Shown in pieces: positions 54,828-64,000 of a stretch of 64,000 nt of DNA. A model generated the notes under the pieces. The model made no database searches. It was not told where the DNA came from and saw only the letters and a list, made by a program, of their open reading frames with translations. The translations under genes and the position numbers were made by a program. How positions within the stretch are numbered: the stretch's first letter is position 1; every line of letters starts with the position of its first letter. Origin of the DNA: Teredinibacter franksiae (GTDB lineage Bacteria; Pseudomonadota; Gammaproteobacteria; Pseudomonadales; Cellvibrionaceae); the NCBI RefSeq assembly GCF_014218805.1, contig NZ_JACJUV010000005.1, positions 1 to 64,000 on the forward strand. Direction: 5' to 3'.

Positions 54828-55610
54828 TCATTTATTGCGTGCAGCGAAATAAATTTGGCTGCCTGGCTCACCACACTCTAGCAGTAGCTCGGCGACAATC
54901 CTGTCCATTGCCTCAGTCAAGGCTTTCACATTGTGGAGGAACCTCAGAAACTGCATAAAACGCGACGCGGGTAAGCTGAGTAAGGCTTTGCAGTAATTGT
55001 TCTTTGATTCTAACTGTGTACGCATCGACAAGGATGTAGAAAATCGCATTCTGCAATCGGCAACCGTCGTGAACTCATTATAGCCAGGGAAATTTTCCAT
55101 GCGACTAAAGATAATATCTATTTGTTGATGGCTATTGTTATGCCGCAACAAATGTAATACGCGGTTCAGATTAAACAATAATTGCATTTTTTCACCTTCA
55201 CTAGTTTGGCTCAGGCGTTCTGCGTTCACGGCAATAACAATTCTTGGTGGACGAATCCATGAGCCTTTTAATCGCGCCAAGTGAAAACGGGTTCTTGGTG
55301 TGTCGTGATCGAGCAGTGCGGTGGGTATTATTTGAGCGCGAAGTTGTACGCCCAATATACCTTGGTCACAATTAGAAACAAGAGATTCTTTGTCGCTGTA
55401 TTGATCGCCGAGCACTAACAGTTGCGTTGCTGTATTAAGTTGATACACAACATATGAAATCAAGGCGGCCACAGAAATTACCAGCAATACCGCAAGCGCC
55501 CGAAAATACCATGCCTCGTATGTGCTCAGAAAAATTAGTAGAACCATCGCACCTGCACTTGCAAAAATACCATATGCAAACAATAGAATACTTAATCTTG
55601 GTACGTTCAT
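54828..55610 (-). CDS. Small TssM-like membrane protein without a P-loop
   Basis: A 260-residue protein with two N-terminal membrane helices (LFAYGIFASAGAMVLLIFL and LAVLLVISVAALISYVVY). The middle resembles the NTPase domain of TssM/IcmF: TALLDHDTPR stands where TssM has LLDTAGR, then PPRIVIAVNAERLSQ (TssM: PINGVxVxISxxDLL) and IDIIFSRMENFPGYNEF (TssM: VYVVVTKxDLLxGFxEFF). A Walker A motif is absent and the large periplasmic domain is missing; full TssM has over 1000 residues. It may be a minimal membrane anchor for the secretion apparatus. The match is by eye and could be wrong. It is the last gene of the operon. Confidence 0.42.
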   Translation of the reverse strand: MNVPRLSILLFAYGIFASAGAMVLLIFLSTYEAWYFRALAVLLVISVAALISYVVYQLNTATQLLVLGDQYSDKESLVSNCDQGILGVQLRAQIIPTALLDHDTPRTRFHLARLKGSWIRPPRIVIAVNAERLSQTSEGEKMQLLFNLNRVLHLLRHNNSHQQIDIIFSRMENFPGYNEFTTVADCRMRFSTSLSMRTQLESKNNYCKALLSLPASRFMQFLRFLHNVKALTEAMDRIVAELLLECGEPGSQIYFAARNK

Positions 55611-55656
55611 AGGTTTTTCTCTTTACCATTGTCTTGGTGTCGGTCGCTCGAAGCCA

Positions 55657-56040
55657 CTAGGCCTCTACAATAAGCTGACCCGCTTGTTTAATACTAATCA
55701 TACCTAGCCACGTACACATCAATTGGCTATCGTCGGTGAGTATTGGAAAGTTCGCGAGCAATACTTTTGGATTTCCGGCTATCCAAGGGCTTACTGTCAT
55801 GGGTACGCACGGAGCGGGGGTTGGCACCCCTAAAGCCGCCGCTGTTGTGGCGATAACCGCTGGGTTAGTCGGCGCACTACACATGCCAAACGGCGGTACA
55901 TTTGTTACAGGAATAAAATCCATAATTGTAGCGCCTGGCGTTCCTTCCATTACTCGGTTGGTGGGTAACACATTAAGGGTTGAAGGTGCTACGCCAAAAG
56001 TGCATTGCATCATCGCGCCACTGCATACGCATTTAGGCAT
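55657..56040 (-). CDS. PAAR-like spike tip protein (DUF4280 type)
   Basis: A 127-residue cysteine- and proline-rich protein starting MPKCVCSGAMMQCTFG, followed by STLNVLPTNRVM and repeated hydrophobic beta strands. This is the pattern of DUF4280, a PAAR-like family that caps the spike of contractile injection systems and may carry effectors. The start is firm: AGGAGAG lies six bases before ATG 56040. It follows the VgrG-like gene by 24 bases, as expected for a spike and its tip. Confidence 0.7.
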   Translation of the reverse strand: MPKCVCSGAMMQCTFGVAPSTLNVLPTNRVMEGTPGATIMDFIPVTNVPPFGMCSAPTNPAVIATTAAALGVPTPAPCVPMTVSPWIAGNPKVLLANFPILTDDSQLMCTWLGMISIKQAGQLIVEA

Positions 56041-56064
56041 GATTGCTCTCCTATAAAACTATCT

Positions 56065-57747
56065 CTATTGCGCTTCTTTGGTTTGTAAAATAATGCTGCC
56101 TTCTTCTAAGCGCACAAGCTCGGTATCATTTTCCTTGTTGCGTTTAATCGCCAAAACCGGTTTGTTGTCTTCATATATGTGGCTAAGCGAAGTTTGGTCT
56201 TGGCTGTTTTTACCGAACAATATATGGTTACCCTGTGTTGCCATGGGTAGTTGCACGCCGTCTCCCCAGCTAAGAACTTTGTGAATATGTGCTCGATATA
56301 GGTCTAGGCTTAGTAACAGTTTGGTGTCACGATAAAAAGGAAAGTAAAAGTGGCTGTTAAGAAAGTCCGGTTCTAACATCACTTTAATTGTAAGGCCCCA
56401 AAGTGGAATATTTACTGCATATTCGAACTGACCGGTAGTATCATTGCTGGTAACGTCAAAAGTTTTATCGCCATCTGCTCCCTGCTTACTAACAACTAGC
56501 CCTTCAACGTATAGGGGGTAGGCTGGCTGACGGTACTCTGGCAGGGTTGGCTGGGGAGCGTCGCTTTTGTGTGCTTGTGCGTGGCATTGCAAATGGTATT
56601 GAGTAAATAGGAGGTCGATATCCTTCTCGAATGAACTATCAATGGCTTTAGCGGAAATAAATACGGCGTGAGTACGGTAACTTTTGTCAGCGTAGAAGAA
56701 TCTACGTCCATCGACATCACTGTTAAATTGTATTTCGCAGCCTGGCCAAAAGTTTTGTAGAGGCCATTGGCTAAACTGCACACTCAGCTGCTCGCCTTTA
56801 ACTCGCAATTTGTTACGTTCAAGGTCTTTTCTATCGGAAAATCTGCTTTCGATACTTTGTCTTAATAGTATATCGTGTTTAATCCCCTCAACCGCACTAG
56901 TGTTTTCCAGCTCGCTTTGCTCGTTGTTTTCAGCCAATCCGTTCAATAAGCTAGTGTTAGAGCGCTTGTGCTCGGGCCATCGTGTATTTATGTGGCTTAT
57001 TTCATGTGGTAAAAACGGTGTGCAGATCTGTAATTCCGGTTGTTCTGCACTTAACAGATAGCTATTCAGCTGATAGTCATAGCTAAAATAACCGTTATTA
57101 CGTTCACTATAATCCATCAAAAATTCATAAAAACTGGCTGTATTTTTTACTCCTGTCTCTCCAGTATTACAGTGTTCGGTATTGCCCAGCGCGAGGCAAA
57201 TCATCGGCTGTATTTCCTCGGCGGGTGCGAAATCAATGGCCAGTTCTATGGGGGCGGTTACCTGAGTATTGATAACCGATGACATACAATCATCGACATA
57301 TAATTCACTGGGAAAGTGCTGCTGCCATAATACTTGTGCGGGGTCAGAAAAGTGAATTTGATAATATCGGTAAAGCACCGGTGCGCCAGACACCTGCTGA
57401 TATGCCTGTTCCTGCAAAAACTTTTCCGTCACCAAGCCCTTTATGTTAAAGCCATCTGGCGGAGGGTCTGGTAGGTTATGAACGGCAGATATGCCAAGTT
57501 CGACATCGATTAAGCTTTCTGTACAAAAGGCTTCCAGTAGTTCATCTTCACGTTGGTCGCTCGGCAAATAGAACCCCAGCATGCCAGAAAATCCATAACT
57601 AAAGGCCTGTAATTCGCATTGCTTTATGTTTGCACCAGGAACGCTATAAGCATTACCGTCTACAGTTAGTGTTAAAGTAAAGGCTAGCGTCTCGGCGTGA
57701 GTGGTGTTTTCTCTTAACGGAGAAGAAATAGGGTTGTGCTCAGTCAT
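56065..57747 (-). CDS. Divergent VgrG-like spike protein
   Basis: A 560-residue protein with the general layout of VgrG: an N-terminal gp27-like part (FTLTLTVDGNAYSVPGANIK, then CELQAFSYGFSGML), a central SFYEFLMDYSERNNGYFSYDY segment that matches the VgrG 'FLxRLxExxGxYYxF' region, and a C-terminal OB-like part. The usual gp5 needle repeats at the end are absent. A separate beta-helix-like protein is encoded five genes upstream and may supply them. ATG 57747 overlaps the preceding gene by eight bases. Other gp27-like spike proteins of contractile systems are the alternative. Confidence 0.55.
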   Translation of the reverse strand: MTEHNPISSPLRENTTHAETLAFTLTLTVDGNAYSVPGANIKQCELQAFSYGFSGMLGFYLPSDQREDELLEAFCTESLIDVELGISAVHNLPDPPPDGFNIKGLVTEKFLQEQAYQQVSGAPVLYRYYQIHFSDPAQVLWQQHFPSELYVDDCMSSVINTQVTAPIELAIDFAPAEEIQPMICLALGNTEHCNTGETGVKNTASFYEFLMDYSERNNGYFSYDYQLNSYLLSAEQPELQICTPFLPHEISHINTRWPEHKRSNTSLLNGLAENNEQSELENTSAVEGIKHDILLRQSIESRFSDRKDLERNKLRVKGEQLSVQFSQWPLQNFWPGCEIQFNSDVDGRRFFYADKSYRTHAVFISAKAIDSSFEKDIDLLFTQYHLQCHAQAHKSDAPQPTLPEYRQPAYPLYVEGLVVSKQGADGDKTFDVTSNDTTGQFEYAVNIPLWGLTIKVMLEPDFLNSHFYFPFYRDTKLLLSLDLYRAHIHKVLSWGDGVQLPMATQGNHILFGKNSQDQTSLSHIYEDNKPVLAIKRNKENDTELVRLEEGSIILQTKEAQ

Positions 57748-58909
57748 TATGCAGTTCCTGTTCGTAAGCACCTTCGCTTTCGAAATACCCTTGTGGTGAA
57801 TATTCACCCTCAACAGCACCGCCTCTTGTAAGTTCCGGCGGCGCGTGTGGCTCTTCTAGCTCAAGGTAAGCGTCCATATCAGCATGAAAGTATTCATGGA
57901 GAACTTGCCAGTGATAGCTTTTTTGTTGAGCAAAGTAGGGCTCTAAATCGCACGCGTGGGTTGCTCTTAACCGAGCGAAATTGGTGAAATAATCGGGGAA
58001 GTAATTTAAGGGGTTGAAATTATCTAGCTCTGTTTGAATATTTTCCAATACCACCGCGGCTTTTAAAGCTTGTTTTGATTCAATGAGCTTTTCAAAAATG
58101 GATATCCGGCGGAATAATAGCTGCAATGCTAGAGAGGGCTTGAACTGAGTTGTGTCTATACCCAGGCTTTTTTGGTGGCATGGGTGCATTTCTGAAGTCA
58201 GCGTTTCACAGCCTTGCGTTCCTATAGAAGCGTCTTCAACGTGTTGATTATCGAGCGACTCTTCTACCGGTTTTTGAGCGAGCATCTGTTGATCGTATAC
58301 GCCTTTTTCTTGATCAATTTCATATTGTTGCGAGGAGAAACAGCCATGAACGCATCTTATTGCGGAGTAAACATCTTCAGCAACAAAGTTGTACTGTGTT
58401 TCAAGCCATGATCGAACCGTATCGAGTGAGTCTAAAGCCAGTTGTGGCGGCTCGTTTTGAGATTGTTGTTGATTCAGAGGGCTTTCCAATCGCGCATGTA
58501 CTTTACGAAAAAACAAGGCCAAGCTGTTGTTGAATACTATCGCATTGGTTTTATTTTTTTTGCCGTTAAGGGTTGCTTGCCAGGGGTGTTGGGCGTGGGC
58601 AACAACCTTTGTTAGGGTTGTTATAACAGTAGCAAATTCTCCGCCGGGGTTTGTTACCCACAAACTGTACAGGTAATAGACGCAGATACGAATATCACAA
58701 AGGCATAAAAGGGGCAGTGTATCAGCGAGTGAAACAATGTGCTCATAGTCGCCTTTTTGCCAGAATGAGCACATACGGTTAAAACATTCCTCCACCTGGA
58801 TAATAACGGCTTCGCTGGCTTTGCCATCTTCAGCGCTAATAGCGTCGAAACTCTCTGGCAGTGTTTGTAGCTTTTCAAAAGCCAAAGATTTTAGATATGA
58901 ATCCGGCAT
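57740..58909 (-). CDS. TssA/VasJ-like protein
   Basis: A 389-residue soluble protein. The part DIRICVYYLYSLW, followed by TTLTKVVAHAQHPWQATLNG, resembles the ImpA N-terminal domain of TssA (DLRVxxxLxxALL...WxxLHP). The C-terminal ISIFEKLIESKQALKAAVV and FNPLNYFPDYFTNF resemble VasJ/TssA tails. If so, it would help assemble or cap the baseplate and sheath. The start ATG 58909 has GGAGG five bases upstream, an excellent site. It overlaps tssG by 19 bases. The assignment is tentative. Confidence 0.42.
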   Translation of the reverse strand: MPDSYLKSLAFEKLQTLPESFDAISAEDGKASEAVIIQVEECFNRMCSFWQKGDYEHIVSLADTLPLLCLCDIRICVYYLYSLWVTNPGGEFATVITTLTKVVAHAQHPWQATLNGKKNKTNAIVFNNSLALFFRKVHARLESPLNQQQSQNEPPQLALDSLDTVRSWLETQYNFVAEDVYSAIRCVHGCFSSQQYEIDQEKGVYDQQMLAQKPVEESLDNQHVEDASIGTQGCETLTSEMHPCHQKSLGIDTTQFKPSLALQLLFRRISIFEKLIESKQALKAAVVLENIQTELDNFNPLNYFPDYFTNFARLRATHACDLEPYFAQQKSYHWQVLHEYFHADMDAYLELEEPHAPPELTRGGAVEGEYSPQGYFESEGAYEQELHND

Positions 58910-59895
58910 GTATCCTCCCACACAATATTTTGATTCTCCTGTTGTTCGGCGTTGCATTCCTCTGTATTCAATGGTTCAAATATAGGTTCAATAGGGCCTT
59001 GGTGTATCGTAATAGTCTGCATCGGCATCATTTGATCGCGCTGTTCTAAACCCTGGGCGGAGCGATAAAATGGGTCGTAACCCAAGCTGCTGTAATCAAT
59101 GAGTTTTAAGTGCTTGTTGGAATGGCTTAAGCGCAAACAAATCTCCAACGACATGGATAGCGCGTTTAACCAAGGGAACACCCACTCATTCACGCGTTGC
59201 CGTACTACTAATGTGCAATCTTCAAGGCTTTTGCCCATATGTGGGCGTTGCGTCATAATTATTTTCACACATTGGGTGTGCTGTGTATTTTGATTTGCTT
59301 GTTCCCTGTATTGACCTAAGGATGAACTACCCAGCACTGGAAGACGTTGGGCCGTGTTGCTGGCCCATGGTATACGTGTTAGTGATATGTAAAACTCCGG
59401 AAAGGCGCGTTCAAACAACCAGTGCAAGCTGCTTTCACTGCGCATGTTCTGCAGTTCTGTGTAACACTTTTTTGTATGCTGCCAGCTCTCAAAATAAATT
59501 TTGTTTATTTCTGGATAAACCTGCCCAAGATAGTTAGCAATAAGAATGTGGTCATAAAACTGAAAGAAGGTTTGCAAGCTCTGCTCGTTCACATCGGGGC
59601 GATCCATAAACTGGCGTATATGCGCAGGGAGAATACCCGTAGAAGCCAATAGCCCAAGGTTTAATTCAATAAATGCGCTGTTGGTAAATTCGCTGTGTTC
59701 ATACAATGTAACGGATTCGATCACTCTATTTTGTGAACTAAGGCTATTGTGACTGGAAAACCATATATCTTGCTCTTGGAAACCTTCGTGTTTCAATAAC
59801 CGCAACAACGCAATTAGGTCAAATTCGCCCAAGCGCTGGTTGATTTCGCGTTCCAGTGATAACGGGCTAGTATCGAAATTAAGCGAGGGCTTCAT
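58891..59895 (-). CDS. tssG: TssG-like baseplate protein
   Basis: Baseplate wedge subunit that works with TssF. The 334-residue protein has SLHWLFERAFPEFYISLTRI and a central QRLPVLGSSSLGQY block, resembling the TssG pattern of a helical domain (LFxxAFP), a W...RLxxLG segment and a LG region, with a C-terminal VVRQRVNEWVFPWLNALSM. ATG 59895 is well supported by GGGAGAG five bases upstream. It overlaps the DotU-like gene by 17 bases. Sequence similarity is low, so position next to tssF adds much of the support. Confidence 0.58.
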   Translation of the reverse strand: MKPSLNFDTSPLSLEREINQRLGEFDLIALLRLLKHEGFQEQDIWFSSHNSLSSQNRVIESVTLYEHSEFTNSAFIELNLGLLASTGILPAHIRQFMDRPDVNEQSLQTFFQFYDHILIANYLGQVYPEINKIYFESWQHTKKCYTELQNMRSESSLHWLFERAFPEFYISLTRIPWASNTAQRLPVLGSSSLGQYREQANQNTQHTQCVKIIMTQRPHMGKSLEDCTLVVRQRVNEWVFPWLNALSMSLEICLRLSHSNKHLKLIDYSSLGYDPFYRSAQGLEQRDQMMPMQTITIHQGPIEPIFEPLNTEECNAEQQENQNIVWEDTCRIHI

Positions 59896-60526
59896 TGTGC
59901 TCTCCCAGTAGCGGTTCAAGCTGATTACGATTGCGAACGAATAGAGGATCTTCATCCACACGAGAGTGTGCAGTACTGGCGCTCGTTCTAATGACTTGTG
60001 CGCAGCGTTGACGAATACGCTCCAGCTGCATTTGTTTGTATAAATAGCAGCCCTTAAACCCTTGTTTTAAGCAAAAATAGTACACTTCCACAACAATACT
60101 GTATTTATCACTGCGTTCCAGTAGCTCTTCCAGGTAGAAAAAAAATCGTTCCCCGCCGTTACGGCAGTGTAAAAACTGTTTTTGTAAGGTTGGCCATTTT
60201 GATTGTACTATTTGTAATCTGTTGTTAGGCCCATTGTCATTTCTAATGCATAAACTTTGTGTAAGCTTTTTGGTCAGTACGGATTCATCGCAGTGAAAAA
60301 TAAGCGCACTCATCAAATACATCAGCGCCTTTTCGGGTATCAGTGGCGTTAGGTTTTTTTTACATTCTTTTAGGTTATTGGCAATCTCTTGGTACAAAGG
60401 CATACAGTCAAGGGTGTCGTCATCAGAAACGAGTAGGTCTTGCGCGCTCATTTCCAACATTTTTTTGTAGGTATTCTCCAAAGCAGAAAAATACAGATAG
60501 AGGGCGTCCCACGCTTGGCTATTCAT
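59879..60526 (-). CDS. tssL: DotU/TssL-like protein lacking a membrane helix
   Basis: A 215-residue protein with the DotU domain signatures: FHCDESVLTKKL (xxDExxL), RFFFYLEELLERSDKYSIVVE (FFxxLExLLxxPxxYxxLLE) and VYYFCLKQGFKGCY (YxLCLxLGFxGxY). TssL proteins normally end in one inner-membrane helix. Here the C terminus (RNRNQLEPLLGEHNEALA) is soluble, so the protein would be cytoplasmic or held by a partner. ATG 60526 with GGTGG upstream is chosen; ATG 60538 is an alternative. It overlaps tssF by eight bases. Confidence 0.65.
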   Translation of the reverse strand: MNSQAWDALYLYFSALENTYKKMLEMSAQDLLVSDDDTLDCMPLYQEIANNLKECKKNLTPLIPEKALMYLMSALIFHCDESVLTKKLTQSLCIRNDNGPNNRLQIVQSKWPTLQKQFLHCRNGGERFFFYLEELLERSDKYSIVVEVYYFCLKQGFKGCYLYKQMQLERIRQRCAQVIRTSASTAHSRVDEDPLFVRNRNQLEPLLGEHNEALA

Positions 60527-62423
60527 AGTAGCCACCATGCTCAAGTAAATAGTCGTTGCCGTCATCGTCTCCAATAATAAATAGCCTCTCCGGGCACGGA
60601 GGGATTAGCCTGTAATCATCTGTTTTTCCGCCATCTGTAGTTTGATTGTATGCATCTACGATCTCTTCATTAATAGTATTGCTAATAGATACTCCATCCT
60701 GAGCAAGGGAGTTTGTTTGTAAGCTTACCTGAATGTCAGTATTCGCAATCCACACATTGAGCAGTGCCTCCAGTCGGGAAAAGAACGCATTCAATAGCGG
60801 CGTTAAAGCGGGGGGGAAATCATAGAGTGAAAATTGGTAGTTGCTATAGGCCCTGAATGCTTGGCTTGAAAAGCCTAAATCGTTTCCCTTTGGTTTTTCG
60901 TGGCCAACACGAACACTTTTAAGCAAGGCCTTAACGTTTTTGAATTCACGATGAAATACAGAAGATAAACTTTCTAGAATAAATACGATGTCGTCGAGGC
61001 TTAGCACCCCTTTGTTTTTCAGCAGGCTTAACTCCAGTAAGCTTTGTGCATCGTCTTCACTTGATGGAATGTGGGCAACCGGAGGGCTGAAGACTCGCCA
61101 GTTTAAACCGGGAATATCCAAATGGCGTGTACGAGCTTTCAGTTTTTGCCACAGGTGCTTACTAAATTCGGGCTGATGCCAAAGGGCATCAATGGTGATT
61201 TTTTCTGGTTTCTTGAATGCACTGGCTAACTGAATATCAATAGACCATTGGCTTTTCCCTTGGGCGTTGGCGTGCAGATTATTCTTGCTTTGGTCGTGAA
61301 TATCATAGGCGGCATCGCCGCTCTTTAGTATGCCTGGGCGTAAAGCCTCTCGGTTTTTGGCTGTGCCTTTATATACGCCTAAACAGTTAAGCAGGCAAAG
61401 GTCTGCTGCAGTCGATGGTGGGCGAATAGCGTGCGCACTTTGCGTTGCATCGAAAGCAATCGTTTCAGCTTGTTCCTGTACGACATTTTCAACACAGATA
61501 ACGTCGAGTTGAAACAAGTCAGACGATAGTTTTAATTGTTGTGGCCAGTGGCCCTTCAGGGTAAGGGTAAGTTCACAACGCTGCCACTGTTGTGGTGCGC
61601 TGTGAAAGTAAAGGTTTAAATAGTTTTCCTGTTGTGGCAACTGAAAGTAGCGACGTACACTTTCAACCGGGTGTAAATCGCGTGTTGGTTCGTCGGGCGC
61701 TTGTTGTACGCTTTCGCTCAAGCAGGCACCCACGGTGAAGCGACCTTGCACGGTTGTATGGCCGTCAAATAAGGCGCATACATGCACTAATTGTTGCTGG
61801 AGCACTTGTTTTAACAGCAAGGACATGGGGAAATTATTGTTTACCGTCAAATACAGGGGTAAATGATCTAGCTGGCCTGGTACCGGTGTGTGGGCCTTAA
61901 GGTCAATGAGTAGTTGGTTGTTGCCCGCGCCCACAACAGAGCTATCCACTTTATAACCCGCCCGCTCGATGGCGATTGGGCGCAAGGGTAGGCCGTATAC
62001 GCTGCGGTATTGTGCTTGTTCGCCTTCATCACTGCTAAGGGTAAAAACACAGCCGGGTTTAATATCGCAAGCTTCAGTAATGTAGCGAGTATTGGCTCGC
62101 AATAAGGCCATGGAAGGCACCGGCGAGCTTAGGTAAGGTAAAAGTTGTTGAAAAACGCGCAGATGTAGCTGGTCGATTTGTTGCTTGCCGGCTAAACGTC
62201 CCTTGGCCATAAAGGCGGCCATGGCTTCGGTCAGGCGTTTTACGTCTGGGTCATCATGTTCTGCCGGTACTTGGTTATGCAAGCTCAAAAACCGCGTTTG
62301 AATGCTAGAAAGAAAAGCGAGCTCTTCATCGAAGGCACTTTGCCTGTCAAACATTTCGCTTTCGTCAATTGTGTTTATTGGGTTTTCACTAGTGAGTGGT
62401 TTTTTGGGCATAGTCTTTTTCAT
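60519..62423 (-). CDS. tssF: TssF-like baseplate protein
   Basis: Large baseplate wedge subunit of contractile secretion systems. The N-terminal region has the TssF layout: FDEELAFLSSIQTRFLSLH, then DDPDVKRLTEAMAAFMAKGR and QLLPYLSSPVPSMALLRAN (TssF: DPxVERLLExFAFLxARxxxKxDD... PHxLxPxPSM). The 634 residues match the family (580-640). The C-terminal third has SVFHREFKNVKALLKSVRVG. The seven-base gap from the upstream gene fits an operon. This is one of the two best-supported secretion genes in the locus. Confidence 0.72.
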   Translation of the reverse strand: MKKTMPKKPLTSENPINTIDESEMFDRQSAFDEELAFLSSIQTRFLSLHNQVPAEHDDPDVKRLTEAMAAFMAKGRLAGKQQIDQLHLRVFQQLLPYLSSPVPSMALLRANTRYITEACDIKPGCVFTLSSDEGEQAQYRSVYGLPLRPIAIERAGYKVDSSVVGAGNNQLLIDLKAHTPVPGQLDHLPLYLTVNNNFPMSLLLKQVLQQQLVHVCALFDGHTTVQGRFTVGACLSESVQQAPDEPTRDLHPVESVRRYFQLPQQENYLNLYFHSAPQQWQRCELTLTLKGHWPQQLKLSSDLFQLDVICVENVVQEQAETIAFDATQSAHAIRPPSTAADLCLLNCLGVYKGTAKNREALRPGILKSGDAAYDIHDQSKNNLHANAQGKSQWSIDIQLASAFKKPEKITIDALWHQPEFSKHLWQKLKARTRHLDIPGLNWRVFSPPVAHIPSSEDDAQSLLELSLLKNKGVLSLDDIVFILESLSSVFHREFKNVKALLKSVRVGHEKPKGNDLGFSSQAFRAYSNYQFSLYDFPPALTPLLNAFFSRLEALLNVWIANTDIQVSLQTNSLAQDGVSISNTINEEIVDAYNQTTDGGKTDDYRLIPPCPERLFIIGDDDGNDYLLEHGGYYE

Positions 62424-62430
62424 CTACTGC

Positions 62431-62841
62431 TTATTGCAGCTTAATGATGCCTCCGGTCGCGCTGATTTGAGCAGAGCCTGAAAGTTCAATATTGGTACCT
62501 TCAATACCAATATCAGCGGCTTTAAAGCTGGCGCCGGTGGCGGCTTCGGCATTTAAGTTAGCGTCGCTTTTTATCGAAAAATCACTTCCGCTGTTCAATG
62601 CCACTGTATTGTTGGCACTGCAACTTATGGTTTCGGCGGTGAGTTCAAAGGTTTTACAATTCATAGAAATTTTGTCCGGCGCCTGAGTAATAGTGCTGGT
62701 ATCGCTCGCGCCTTTACTGGTAGTGGTAATCGAATCGCCATTAAGCACAACAGTGTGGGTAATATTGCCGTTCTCATTATCGAGGGTAATGGTAATACCG
62801 TCGGTTTTATTGAGTTCAACACGACACATGAGCGCGCTCAT
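62431..62841 (-). CDS. Small beta-helix-like protein, possible detached spike needle
   Basis: A 136-residue protein made of short repeats of polar and hydrophobic residues (for example TVVLNGDSITTTSKGAS, NNTVALNSGSDFSIKSDANL, AADIGIEGTNIELSGSAQIS). This is the texture of the gp5-type triple beta-helix found at the end of VgrG and phage spikes. It has no signal peptide. Its ATG overlaps the tssE stop by four bases (ATGA). Since the VgrG-like protein here lacks these repeats, this may be the needle in a separate polypeptide. Confidence 0.5.
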   Translation of the reverse strand: MSALMCRVELNKTDGITITLDNENGNITHTVVLNGDSITTTSKGASDTSTITQAPDKISMNCKTFELTAETISCSANNTVALNSGSDFSIKSDANLNAEAATGASFKAADIGIEGTNIELSGSAQISATGGIIKLQ

Positions 62842-63245
62842 ACGAACACTCCATTGCTGTGTCGTAGGCTCTGTTGATACGTGTCCTTGGTCAGCTCAAG
62901 GGTAAAATGTATTTTTTGGTTGGTTAGCTGTGCTTGTACCGCAAGGTGCCAGTAAGACGCGTTGTTTCCAACCAGGCTCACCTGTACATCATGCAAACGT
63001 TTTTCATGTTGCTCTATTTGTTGTTGTATATCTTTACAAAGCTGGTGCATAAGGGCTTCGCTTAAGGAGTGCTCAGAATAATCCAGCAAGCCGAAATTTT
63101 GGCTTGGATCGATACTTCTGCGTGACTGAAGTATAATTTGCAAATTGTCGATAATATTCTGTAGCTGGCCGCCGTCATTTCGCGAAGCTAAGCTGGCCGG
63201 TATTGCGCCGGCTTTGGGGTCGATAAATCTATTAAGCAACGCCAT
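62838..63245 (-). CDS. tssE: gp25/TssE-like baseplate protein
   Basis: A 135-residue protein of the gp25 family, a baseplate component that helps start sheath assembly. The segment IIDNLQIILQSRRSIDPSQN, followed by FGLLDYS, matches the TssE pattern DLxxLLNTRR...FGLxDxS. A C-terminal beta region (QVSLVGNNASYWHLAVQAQL) follows. ATG 63245 (MALLNRFID) gives a family-like start. It overlaps tssK by 14 bases and the next gene by four. Confidence 0.68.
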   Translation of the reverse strand: MALLNRFIDPKAGAIPASLASRNDGGQLQNIIDNLQIILQSRRSIDPSQNFGLLDYSEHSLSEALMHQLCKDIQQQIEQHEKRLHDVQVSLVGNNASYWHLAVQAQLTNQKIHFTLELTKDTYQQSLRHSNGVFV

Positions 63246-64000
63246 GACGCACCATTTTCTTTCTTTTTGGCACGTGCTGTAACTGCGTTGGCTGATAAAA
63301 AATATAAAACGTATAACCTTCGAACTCCGGTTGGGCCAAAAACGCAATACTGCCATCTTCCTGTATGTGCCTTAGCTCTTCCCCGTGTTGCAATTGAAAG
63401 CATTGGGTAGACTCGCCAAAGTAGTGTGTTAATGCACTGTGCCTAACCGGTGCTAATGCTGCGCCGCTCAATGCGTAATGATACAAGGTGCCCATTCGCC
63501 TTTGGCTGCTAAGGCAGGGTAGTTGCGCGTCGGGTAATGAGGCTCGTTGGTCGCAATTAATAACTAAATACAGTTTATCCTTAGCGTGTAAGCTGTTGGG
63601 CAACGCAGTTTGATAGCAACCATCTTTTAAGTGCAGCTCAAAGCTTTGGCTGTTGCGGTCTTGTCGTTTTAAGTGGGCGATAATGCTACGAAACAAGCGT
63701 TTAAAAAGTCCGTGCAAGTCATTGTGGCGATAGTTTTTGATATTCAGGATTTTCCAGTCGCCACTGGATAAGGTTAACTCTCGATTGAGAATGTGTAGTT
63801 GTTCATACAAAAAGTAGGGGTGTAAAAATATTTCACCCGAAACTTTGGTGCTGCCCAAATGATTCGATAAATATTGTAAGGCCTGGCTCAAAACGCTGGC
63901 GCACTGTTTTATTTCATAAAGCCGTACATCAGGTAGTTGTTTTTGCTGATATTGTTTGTGAATATCGCTCAGATGACGACTTAATAATACGCTGAGTTGC
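63232..64000 (-). CDS. tssK: TssK-like baseplate protein, N terminus beyond the window
   Basis: The frame is open from the right edge: bases 63892-64000 add residues such as LSVLLSRHLSDIHKQYQQKQ upstream of the TTG at 63891, so the gene continues past 64000. The visible 255 residues match the C-terminal half of TssK: LHPYFLYEQLHILNRELT fits the 'HPxxLYxxLxxLAGELxTF' block, followed by YRHNDLHGLFKRLFRSI (YDHxxLxxxFxxLxxxI). The C-terminal part with YHYALSGAALAPVRH and YTFYIFY resembles its receptor-binding end. TssK links the baseplate to the membrane complex. Confidence 0.66.
   Translation of the reverse strand, partial: QLSVLLSRHLSDIHKQYQQKQLPDVRLYEIKQCASVLSQALQYLSNHLGSTKVSGEIFLHPYFLYEQLHILNRELTLSSGDWKILNIKNYRHNDLHGLFKRLFRSIIAHLKRQDRNSQSFELHLKDGCYQTALPNSLHAKDKLYLVINCDQRASLPDAQLPCLSSQRRMGTLYHYALSGAALAPVRHSALTHYFGESTQCFQLQHGEELRHIQEDGSIAFLAQPEFEGYTFYIFYQPTQLQHVPKRKKMVRHGVA

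Follow-up and report, generated by a model that had tools for sequence, protein, structure and literature searches.

A putative Francisella-type T6SSii-like secretion cluster with a truncated TssM in Teredinibacter franksiae and marine relatives

We analysed a 64,000-nucleotide stretch of the Teredinibacter franksiae genome (the window; C5:1-64000 of the 5.41 Mb genome G000, on contig C5, which runs on to 73,387 bp) that ends in ten genes of a type VI secretion system (T6SS). They make up the distal portion of a cluster of 13 genes. Judged by its sequence, the cluster is a Francisella-type, T6SSii-like system and not an ordinary subtype i system (T6SSi). Its TssM is truncated, the truncation segregates with further traits, and the systems that share these traits form a clade. 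The cluster probably encodes a T6SSii-like contractile injector of a marine sub-lineage, with its membrane complex cut down to the cytoplasmic, baseplate-docking parts. Below, stretches and loci mapped around related clusters carry L numbers.

The gene order is TssB, TssC, tube, TssK, TssE, spike, TssF, TssL, TssG, IglI, hub, DUF4280 and g1, the last being the short TssM. All ten open reading frames (ORFs) described on the minus strand in an initial annotation of the window were found at that place and strand. It had counted seven overlapping junctions out of nine, and the coordinates give six (K/E, E/spike, F/L, L/G, G/IglI and IglI/hub), which remain overlapping when starts are shifted by eye to those of orthologues. 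Gaps of 7, 24 and 46 bp separate spike from TssF, hub from DUF4280 and DUF4280 from g1, respectively. The features of the window are as follows.

63232..64000, minus strand: TssK, C-terminal part; the frame runs to C5:64596 (454 aa) and in full matches TIGR03353 (E 2.5e-97) and PF05936 (1.4e-27).
62838..63245, minus strand: TssE, gp25-like; PF04965 (3.2e-9) over cut-off and TIGR03357 (5.6e-12) under it; the longest ORF starts at 63356, and the start was shifted by eye to fit orthologues.
62431..62841, minus strand: putative short spike (the C-terminal needle part of VgrG), 136 aa; weak matches to NF041249, Francisella TssI (0.0088), and PF10106 (0.016), both under cut-off.
60519..62423, minus strand: TssF; PF05947 (4.9e-25), with NF041246, IglH/TssF (6.6e-8), under its cut-off.
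59879..60526, minus strand: TssL/DotU without a C-terminal membrane helix; PF09850 (7.1e-19).
58891..59895, minus strand: TssG; PF06996 (0.0047) under cut-off, and position between TssL and IglI.
57740..58909, minus strand: IglI-family protein (TssA-like); NF041244 (E 1.7e-64, 218.5 bits, cut-off 100).
56065..57747, minus strand: PdpA-like hub of 560 aa, corresponding to the gp27/gp5-OB part of a VgrG that is split; assigned by profile, model and fold search.
55657..56040, minus strand: DUF4280 PAAR-like tip; PF14107 (1.7e-32, 112.7 bits, cut-off 26.3), with NF041248, IglG (1.4e-12), under cut-off.
54828..55610, minus strand: g1, a short TssM of 260 aa with a membrane hairpin and a cytoplasmic domain; assigned by hydrophobic stretches, AlphaFold helices and hhalign.

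By its sequence, g1 is homologous to the N-terminal part of TssM, as its earlier description as a short TssM-like protein had proposed. A search with the g1 protein alone returned only a 99 % copy. Cluster position and profiles were used to assemble the g1 family, which has eight rows, namely the window, the 99 % copy and six other marine genomes. Aligned by hhalign with 14 full-length TssMs, the family gave 98.5 % probability (E 3.3e-15), with g1 residues 63-257 lying on residues 81-311 of the L104 TssM; a control comparison with the hub alignment gave 0.1 %. The next membrane helix lies at 342-360 in L104 and starts at 332-409 in the other long TssMs where the scan detects one. Because g1 ends before this helix, it is without the entire periplasmic part. 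Two matches support the reading of the long proteins of the lineage as TssMs: that of TIGR03348 to the copies in three genomes (5.4e-12, 9.3e-12 and 6.9e-7), and that to the solved IcmF periplasmic domain (1.3e-6).

The relation was also found from the short side. A profile of the short g1 proteins, run against all ORFs of the loci, gave 33 matches at E <= 1: the eight short rows plus 25 longer frames (431-1304 aa), each of which carries the TssM label from the iterated profile. The E values ran from 3.3e-7 to 0.042, and none of 320 shuffled long ORFs matched. The 45 frames labelled TssM comprise 32 of full length (1010-1354 aa), the eight short marine rows (seven systems) and five of 145-640 aa that appear clipped by the ends of their stretches. 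An intermediate occurs in a metagenome-assembled genome (MAG) labelled Zixiibacteriota, whose 358-aa TssM ends at the end point of g1 and is matched by the g1 profile at 2.3e-15 (1000 sequences assumed); the same test gave no match to T6SSi or Francisella-type TssMs. The membrane helices of g1 are read from a hydropathy scan, with two hydrophobic stretches, and from one AlphaFold model of moderate confidence (pLDDT 74.9), with helices at 4-29 and 33-60. A division of TssM between two genes was also considered and rejected: in the marine genomes without T6SSi, profile searches, within their limits, turned up no further IcmF piece.

The TssL of the window has lost its anchor as well. Its C-terminal hydropathy maximum is 0.83, and the ten reduced rows (nine systems: the window and L052-L059, with L040 a duplicate of L059) span -0.57 to 1.13. 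In 50 loci that do not belong to the reduced set the range is 1.42-2.74; L109 was left out as too short. Truncated TssM and anchorless TssL together confirm the reduced membrane complex noted in the initial annotation. Three further clusters, L062, L065 and L066, are without TssL and TssM. In L062 and L066, an ORF of 79 and 93 aa, respectively, lies between TssF and TssG, where TssL is expected (L062:7888-8127, L066:7337-7618). TssC is long (629-663 aa) in 11 systems, namely the window, L052, L053, L054, L057, L058, L059, L062, L065, L066 and L167 (in the MAG of L055). In 37 loci it measures 491-526 aa, the calls in L070, L090, L107 and L110 being excluded as cut or split; the gain is an N-terminal extension of ~130 residues. 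A long TssC is not unique to the reduced set, as another T6SS of Aliikangiella coralliicola (L163, L164), in the outgroup, has one of 684 aa. TssE was not detected by profile in the reduced clusters L054, L058 and L059. A Clp ATPase resembling the one in the Methylobacter cluster, considered as a possible mark of complete systems, was found in 14 of 79 loci and, within the stretches, in none of the ten marine and none of the Myxococcota loci; its absence from the marine loci is weak evidence, since it occurs in so few loci and in no Myxococcota locus.

We built a TssB+C+K tree from 1086 columns and 57 systems, with the root on an outgroup of six that we took to be T6SSi (for L164 the class is assumed); its rows hold few T6SSi, no T6SSiii or T6SSiv, and some MAGs. 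Fifty-one systems form one branch apart from the six outgroup systems, which include the T6SSi of G000 itself, at 100/100. This bears out the initial view of a divergent T6SS-type locus far from the well-known T6SS, and the ordinary T6SSi placement that would have spoken against that view was not obtained. The lineage of the cluster is a sister branch and does not fall inside the Francisella branch. The eight short-TssM systems form a clade (100/98), with which the three systems that have neither TssL nor TssM group at 97/88; a quick tree gave the joint reduced clade 89. Loss of the periplasmic part of TssM would most simply be one derived event. The nearest relatives of the window's cluster are those of Alteromonadaceae M269, Paraglaciecola and Colwellia (100/100), not that of Marinibactrum (L059), which apparently belongs to the window's family. 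Because of this, and of the patchy occurrence, the tree points to spread of the cluster by horizontal transfer.

Assignment to the T6SSii-like systems draws on the composition of the cluster. General T6SS models recognise TssK, TssF, TssL, TssC and TssB, and gp25 serves for TssE. Of the names first given to these genes, TssK, TssE, TssF and TssL hold over profile cut-offs and TssG falls under its own, while the TssG family profile matches T6SSi proteins at the TssG position (3e-3 to 7e-8). The predicted DUF4280 tip was confirmed, and the protein first called TssA-like proved to be of the IglI family. Both the VgrG-like hub and g1 have no Pfam or NCBIfam family above cut-off. A 32-row hub profile matched Francisella PdpA (6u9e) in the PDB at E 3.6e-5 for the chain and 0.00096 for the best stretch. 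In a fold search with the AlphaFold model of the hub (pLDDT 86.5), the best matches were PdpA-VgrG structures (6u9f, 6u9e and 6u9g; 3.5e-26 to 6.4e-26), with a spike of extracellular contractile injection systems (eCIS; 2.3e-20) and the best T6SSi VgrG (8.9e-16) at lower ranks. The hub probably starts at 57747, as in its homologues, although the ORF as listed has 584 aa. For TssC, the closest solved structure is IglB (1.1e-123; next 9.6e-98). Sequence searches of the PDB gave no match at E <= 0.1 for TssK, nothing useful for the tube-like protein or the single hub sequence, and for the spike one match at 0.69, to a cyanobacterial contractile-system protein.

In T6SSi, hub and spike form a one-piece VgrG. 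The hub of the window stops after the OB-like part, and the spike, named by weak match and position, is a separate gene kept at the equivalent place in marine relatives (the spike profile drifted from 66 to 150 matches and mislabelled some hubs as spike, and those labels were ignored). eCIS are not known to have a T6SS-specific TssK or TssL, and the window's cluster contains both the TssK and the DotU families. A 2018 review, where it sets out the T6SSii layout, describes a PdpA-type hub apart from a short VgrG spike, IglI, an IglG-type DUF4280 tip and no clustered ClpV (PMC5924787). The window's cluster agrees with this layout, and with the Francisella-type cluster L049, in every one of these parts: no ClpV lies in the cluster, no Clp match occurs in its stretch L004, and the sole ClpV of G000 over cut-off is in the T6SSi on C1. 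In L049, VgrG, IglG, IglH and IglJ pass the curated Francisella models, whereas the window's proteins fall under the cut-off or do not match (IglG, IglH, IglJ, TssI_Fran). We therefore use the label T6SSii-like and not strict T6SSii. The earlier idea of a separate, unplaced contractile subtype was not upheld.

Sequence past 64 kb supplied the proximal genes on the same strand: the rest of TssK, a 192-aa tube-like protein, a 631-aa TssC and a 186-aa TssB. The sheath and tube genes occupy C5:64703-67835, just past the window end, where the initial annotation had suggested looking; the full TssM that it likewise did not see in the window is missing from the cluster altogether. We infer a tube role for the 192-aa protein from its position and its conservation in 55 ORFs of related loci.

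According to the part of the 2018 review that covers them, Francisella systems have a full-length TssM (PdpB), DotU and TssJ (IglE) (PMC5924787). The window's cluster differs from these in its cut TssM, anchorless TssL, absent TssJ, TssC extension and recognisable TssE. Homologues of TssB, C, E, F, G, K and DotU are shared with T6SSi, but the canonical T6SSi of G000 (C1 ~495-523 kb; L006, L007) has a full TssM, TssJ and ClpV, and the window's cluster has none of them. The only full-length TssM found by TIGR03348 in G000 belongs to that separate T6SSi, and PF12790 finds only the T6SSi TssJ.

We searched 15 genomes for the missing parts. TIGR03348 matched in seven (G000 and the genomes of L054, L058, L059, L063, L079 and L089) and not in those of L052, L053, L055, L056, L057, L062, L065 and L066. 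Its matches in G000 and the L054, L058 and L059 genomes lie at canonical T6SSi loci, with one further weak match in the L054 genome at another T6SS locus. TssJ (PF12790) and ClpV over cut-off were each found in six of the 15 genomes and in none of the eight genomes without a TIGR03348 TssM; other Clp matches occur in all 15. PF06744 and PF06761 each match 5 of 14 genomes, and bear mainly on T6SSi because they miss or barely see the TssMs of the lineage. An alignment of lineage TssMs recovered full proteins from the genomes of L063, L079 and L089, a short one from that of L055, and nothing from the ten marine genomes; this silence is weak by itself because T6SSi TssMs and g1 were missed too. 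DotU (PF09850) was found in 12 of 15 genomes, and not in those of L062, L065 and L066. Three isolates (L052, L053 and L057) carry the reduced cluster with no TIGR03348 TssM, PF12790 TssJ or ClpV over cut-off, and since these profiles find none, they have no detected T6SSi from which to borrow. T6SSi went undetected in Paraglaciecola marina, Colwellia sp. MB3u-41 and Alteromonadaceae bacterium M269.

In the injector we propose, a TssBC sheath, the tube protein, a TssK-E-F-G baseplate, the split PdpA-like hub with its short spike, the DUF4280 tip and IglI would make up the machine. The cytoplasm-facing domains of TssM and TssL would have been retained and the envelope-crossing ones lost. g1 may be anchored in the inner membrane by its helix hairpin, and its cytoplasmic domain, together with the soluble TssL, could bind TssK and so position the baseplate at the membrane; a study of Bacteroidota reports interactions of TssK with the cytoplasmic domains of both TssM and TssL (PMC10781749). 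IglI might aid sheath growth. Contraction would then push tube, hub, spike and tip outwards with no dedicated channel. Because there is no periplasmic part of TssM, no TssJ and no TssL anchor, the spike would have to breach the envelope in other ways: unaided through periplasm and outer membrane, via unlinked envelope proteins, after lysis, or at another membrane. The sheath may be recycled by a general ClpB, which is described as serving Francisella (PMC5924787), or not at all. Docking, firing, the envelope route and the use of ClpB are all predictions from the gene content.

Several points weigh against this proposal. The absence of TssM and TssJ comes from profile searches only, PF12790 need not see IglE-like lipoproteins, and the T6SSi of G000, with its TssM, TssJ and ClpV, could lend parts. 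No Pfam or NCBIfam Hcp model matched the 192-aa tube-like protein. When the g1 model was put through a fold search, nothing matched at E <= 0.001; G-protein folds ranked best, and the search was not used as evidence. In the tree there are only six outgroup systems, and the node that holds the 40 systems outside the reduced clade, including Francisella-type clusters, has a support of only 50/98.

There is a lesser but real chance that the T6SS is complete and spans the envelope, with the parts missing from the cluster supplied by unlinked genes, either for unrelated envelope proteins or the T6SSi complex of the same cell. T6SSiii of Bacteroidota is a precedent, having replaced TssJLM by the unrelated complex TssNQOPR, and the authors of that work consider that a T6SS without a membrane complex is unlikely to work (PMC10781749); a T6SSi TssM and TssJ are at hand in the genomes of the window, L054, L058 and L059. 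The window's cluster differs from T6SSiii in retaining TssL and TssM remnants, and lending within the cell is hard to reconcile with the three isolates above, which share the reduced cluster. A survey of the ten marine clusters by ORF and hydropathy turned up no additional membrane protein that is both linked to them and conserved. Improbable to our minds is a decaying relic, in which TssM and the TssL anchor were lost through disuse and the machine is dead. Such decay would fit the transposase and reverse transcriptase that flank the cluster, the lack of a recognised effector and the fast evolution of g1, which is 17-38 % identical to its six other marine copies. Yet the frame of g1 stays open over a similar length in seven genomes, 11 columns are invariant across the eight rows of its family, the other 12 genes of the window's cluster are intact frames, the hubs of the window, Paraglaciecola and M269 are 61-66 % identical, and the trait set is common to the whole clade. 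An ordinary T6SSi that has merely diverged is most improbable. TssB, TssC, TssK, TssF and TssE do match general T6SS models, and a TssC tree in a 2026 paper, as far as its account of the subtypes goes, nests T6SSii within the wider T6SSi lineage (PMC13098142), but the split spike, IglI, DUF4280, unlinked ClpV and truncated TssM, and the separation from the six outgroup systems, all argue otherwise.

T6SSiv (Amoebophilus) is described, in the relevant part of a 2023 review, as being without TssJML and ClpV (PMC10433429). By that description, the window's cluster differs in that TssK, a soluble TssL and a remnant of TssM are kept and in that it groups with T6SSii-like systems. The window's membrane-complex parts are reduced but still present; in the genomes of L062, L065 and L066 no TssL or TssM was found.

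Relatives were found widely. The hub gave 47 protein-database matches at E <= 0.001, its own included, and the hub alignment, run against genome contigs, pointed to 94 stretches that encode a relative; the best 80 were retained and correspond to 76 loci. A scan with a single TssF sequence found no relative. These loci are from marine Gammaproteobacteria, Methylococcales, Myxococcota, Thermodesulfobacteriota, Planctomycetota and MAGs, the binning of which may be wrong. The marine gammaproteobacterial relatives are Colwellia, Paraglaciecola, Alteromonadaceae M269, Aliikangiella, Microbulbifer, Marinibactrum and Pseudoalteromonas. Iterated profiles found TssB, TssC, tube, TssK, TssF, hub and IglI together in 39 of 79 mapped stretches (the 76 loci, the window's own and two duplicate Marinibactrum pieces), and many of the incomplete ones end at contig ends. 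At its cut-off, the IglI model recognises 2 of 58 relatives and, across the class, 7 of 369 genomes, both counts including the window's own genome, and within the genus it matches in one of eight genomes, again the window's own. Genome G376 (L042, L043, L050 and L051) has five IglI-model matches; some of its copies look broken or badly sequenced, since TssC is split over several frames in L042, L050 and L051. A 1206-aa protein near the Marinibactrum cluster, considered as a TssM, is DNA polymerase III alpha. DUF4280 occurs once in each of nine marine genomes searched (that of L065 left out), as open frames of 129-153 aa; toxin parts joined to it, sought there as a clue to cargo, were not found, and no cargo or effector gene was recognised.

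Past the cluster lie a REP-type transposase, a small lipoprotein-like ORF, a further ORF and a reverse transcriptase. The transposase (C5:68278-69243; L004:16278-17243) is of the Y1 type (PF01797), and towards the C-terminus it resembles the DNA-binding domain of DnaA, with a score below the cut-off of Pfam. The reverse transcriptase (C5:72325-73386; L005:2325-3386) is 51 % identical over 329 residues to one adjoining the L066 cluster (L066:13338-14384), and is possibly a mobile element or defence gene that travels with the cluster. A plasmid or phage element was considered for the cluster and rejected, as no hub match was found in the plasmid or phage collection. Base composition was not used as evidence, as the GC fraction of the cluster (0.449) differs too little from that of window positions 1-54000 (0.464).

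In the portion that treats T6SSii, the 2023 review holds this subtype to be exclusive to Francisella (PMC10433429), whereas the related T6SSii-like clusters found here lie outside that genus. In a 2026 survey the number of chromosomal T6SSii clusters is put at 148, and Francisella and Dongshaea are among the genera named (PMC13098142). No description of the present clusters surfaced in a search of the open-access literature; NCBIfam has an "IglI family" model, so the wider family is already known to curators. More tentatively, we can picture a widespread T6SSii-like family outside Francisella in which one marine branch might be channel-less, ClpV-less and docked at the inner membrane, keeping the docking domains of TssM and TssL (Pseudoalteromonas, including P. 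rubra, and a relative keep none). This branch would be convergent with T6SSiv, and the TssC extension would be a linked adaptation.

The 2018 review, in its T6SSii entries, sets question marks for TssE, TssF and TssG (PMC5924787), and NCBIfam now names IglH as TssF and IglJ as a baseplate protein. Marine relatives with a recognisable TssE and TssF, IglI and a PdpA-like hub would allow the T6SSii baseplate and spike to be studied without a dangerous pathogen. The cut-down complex would also separate two jobs of TssM and TssL, baseplate docking and envelope crossing, and makes T6SS firing without a trans-envelope channel a directly testable question.

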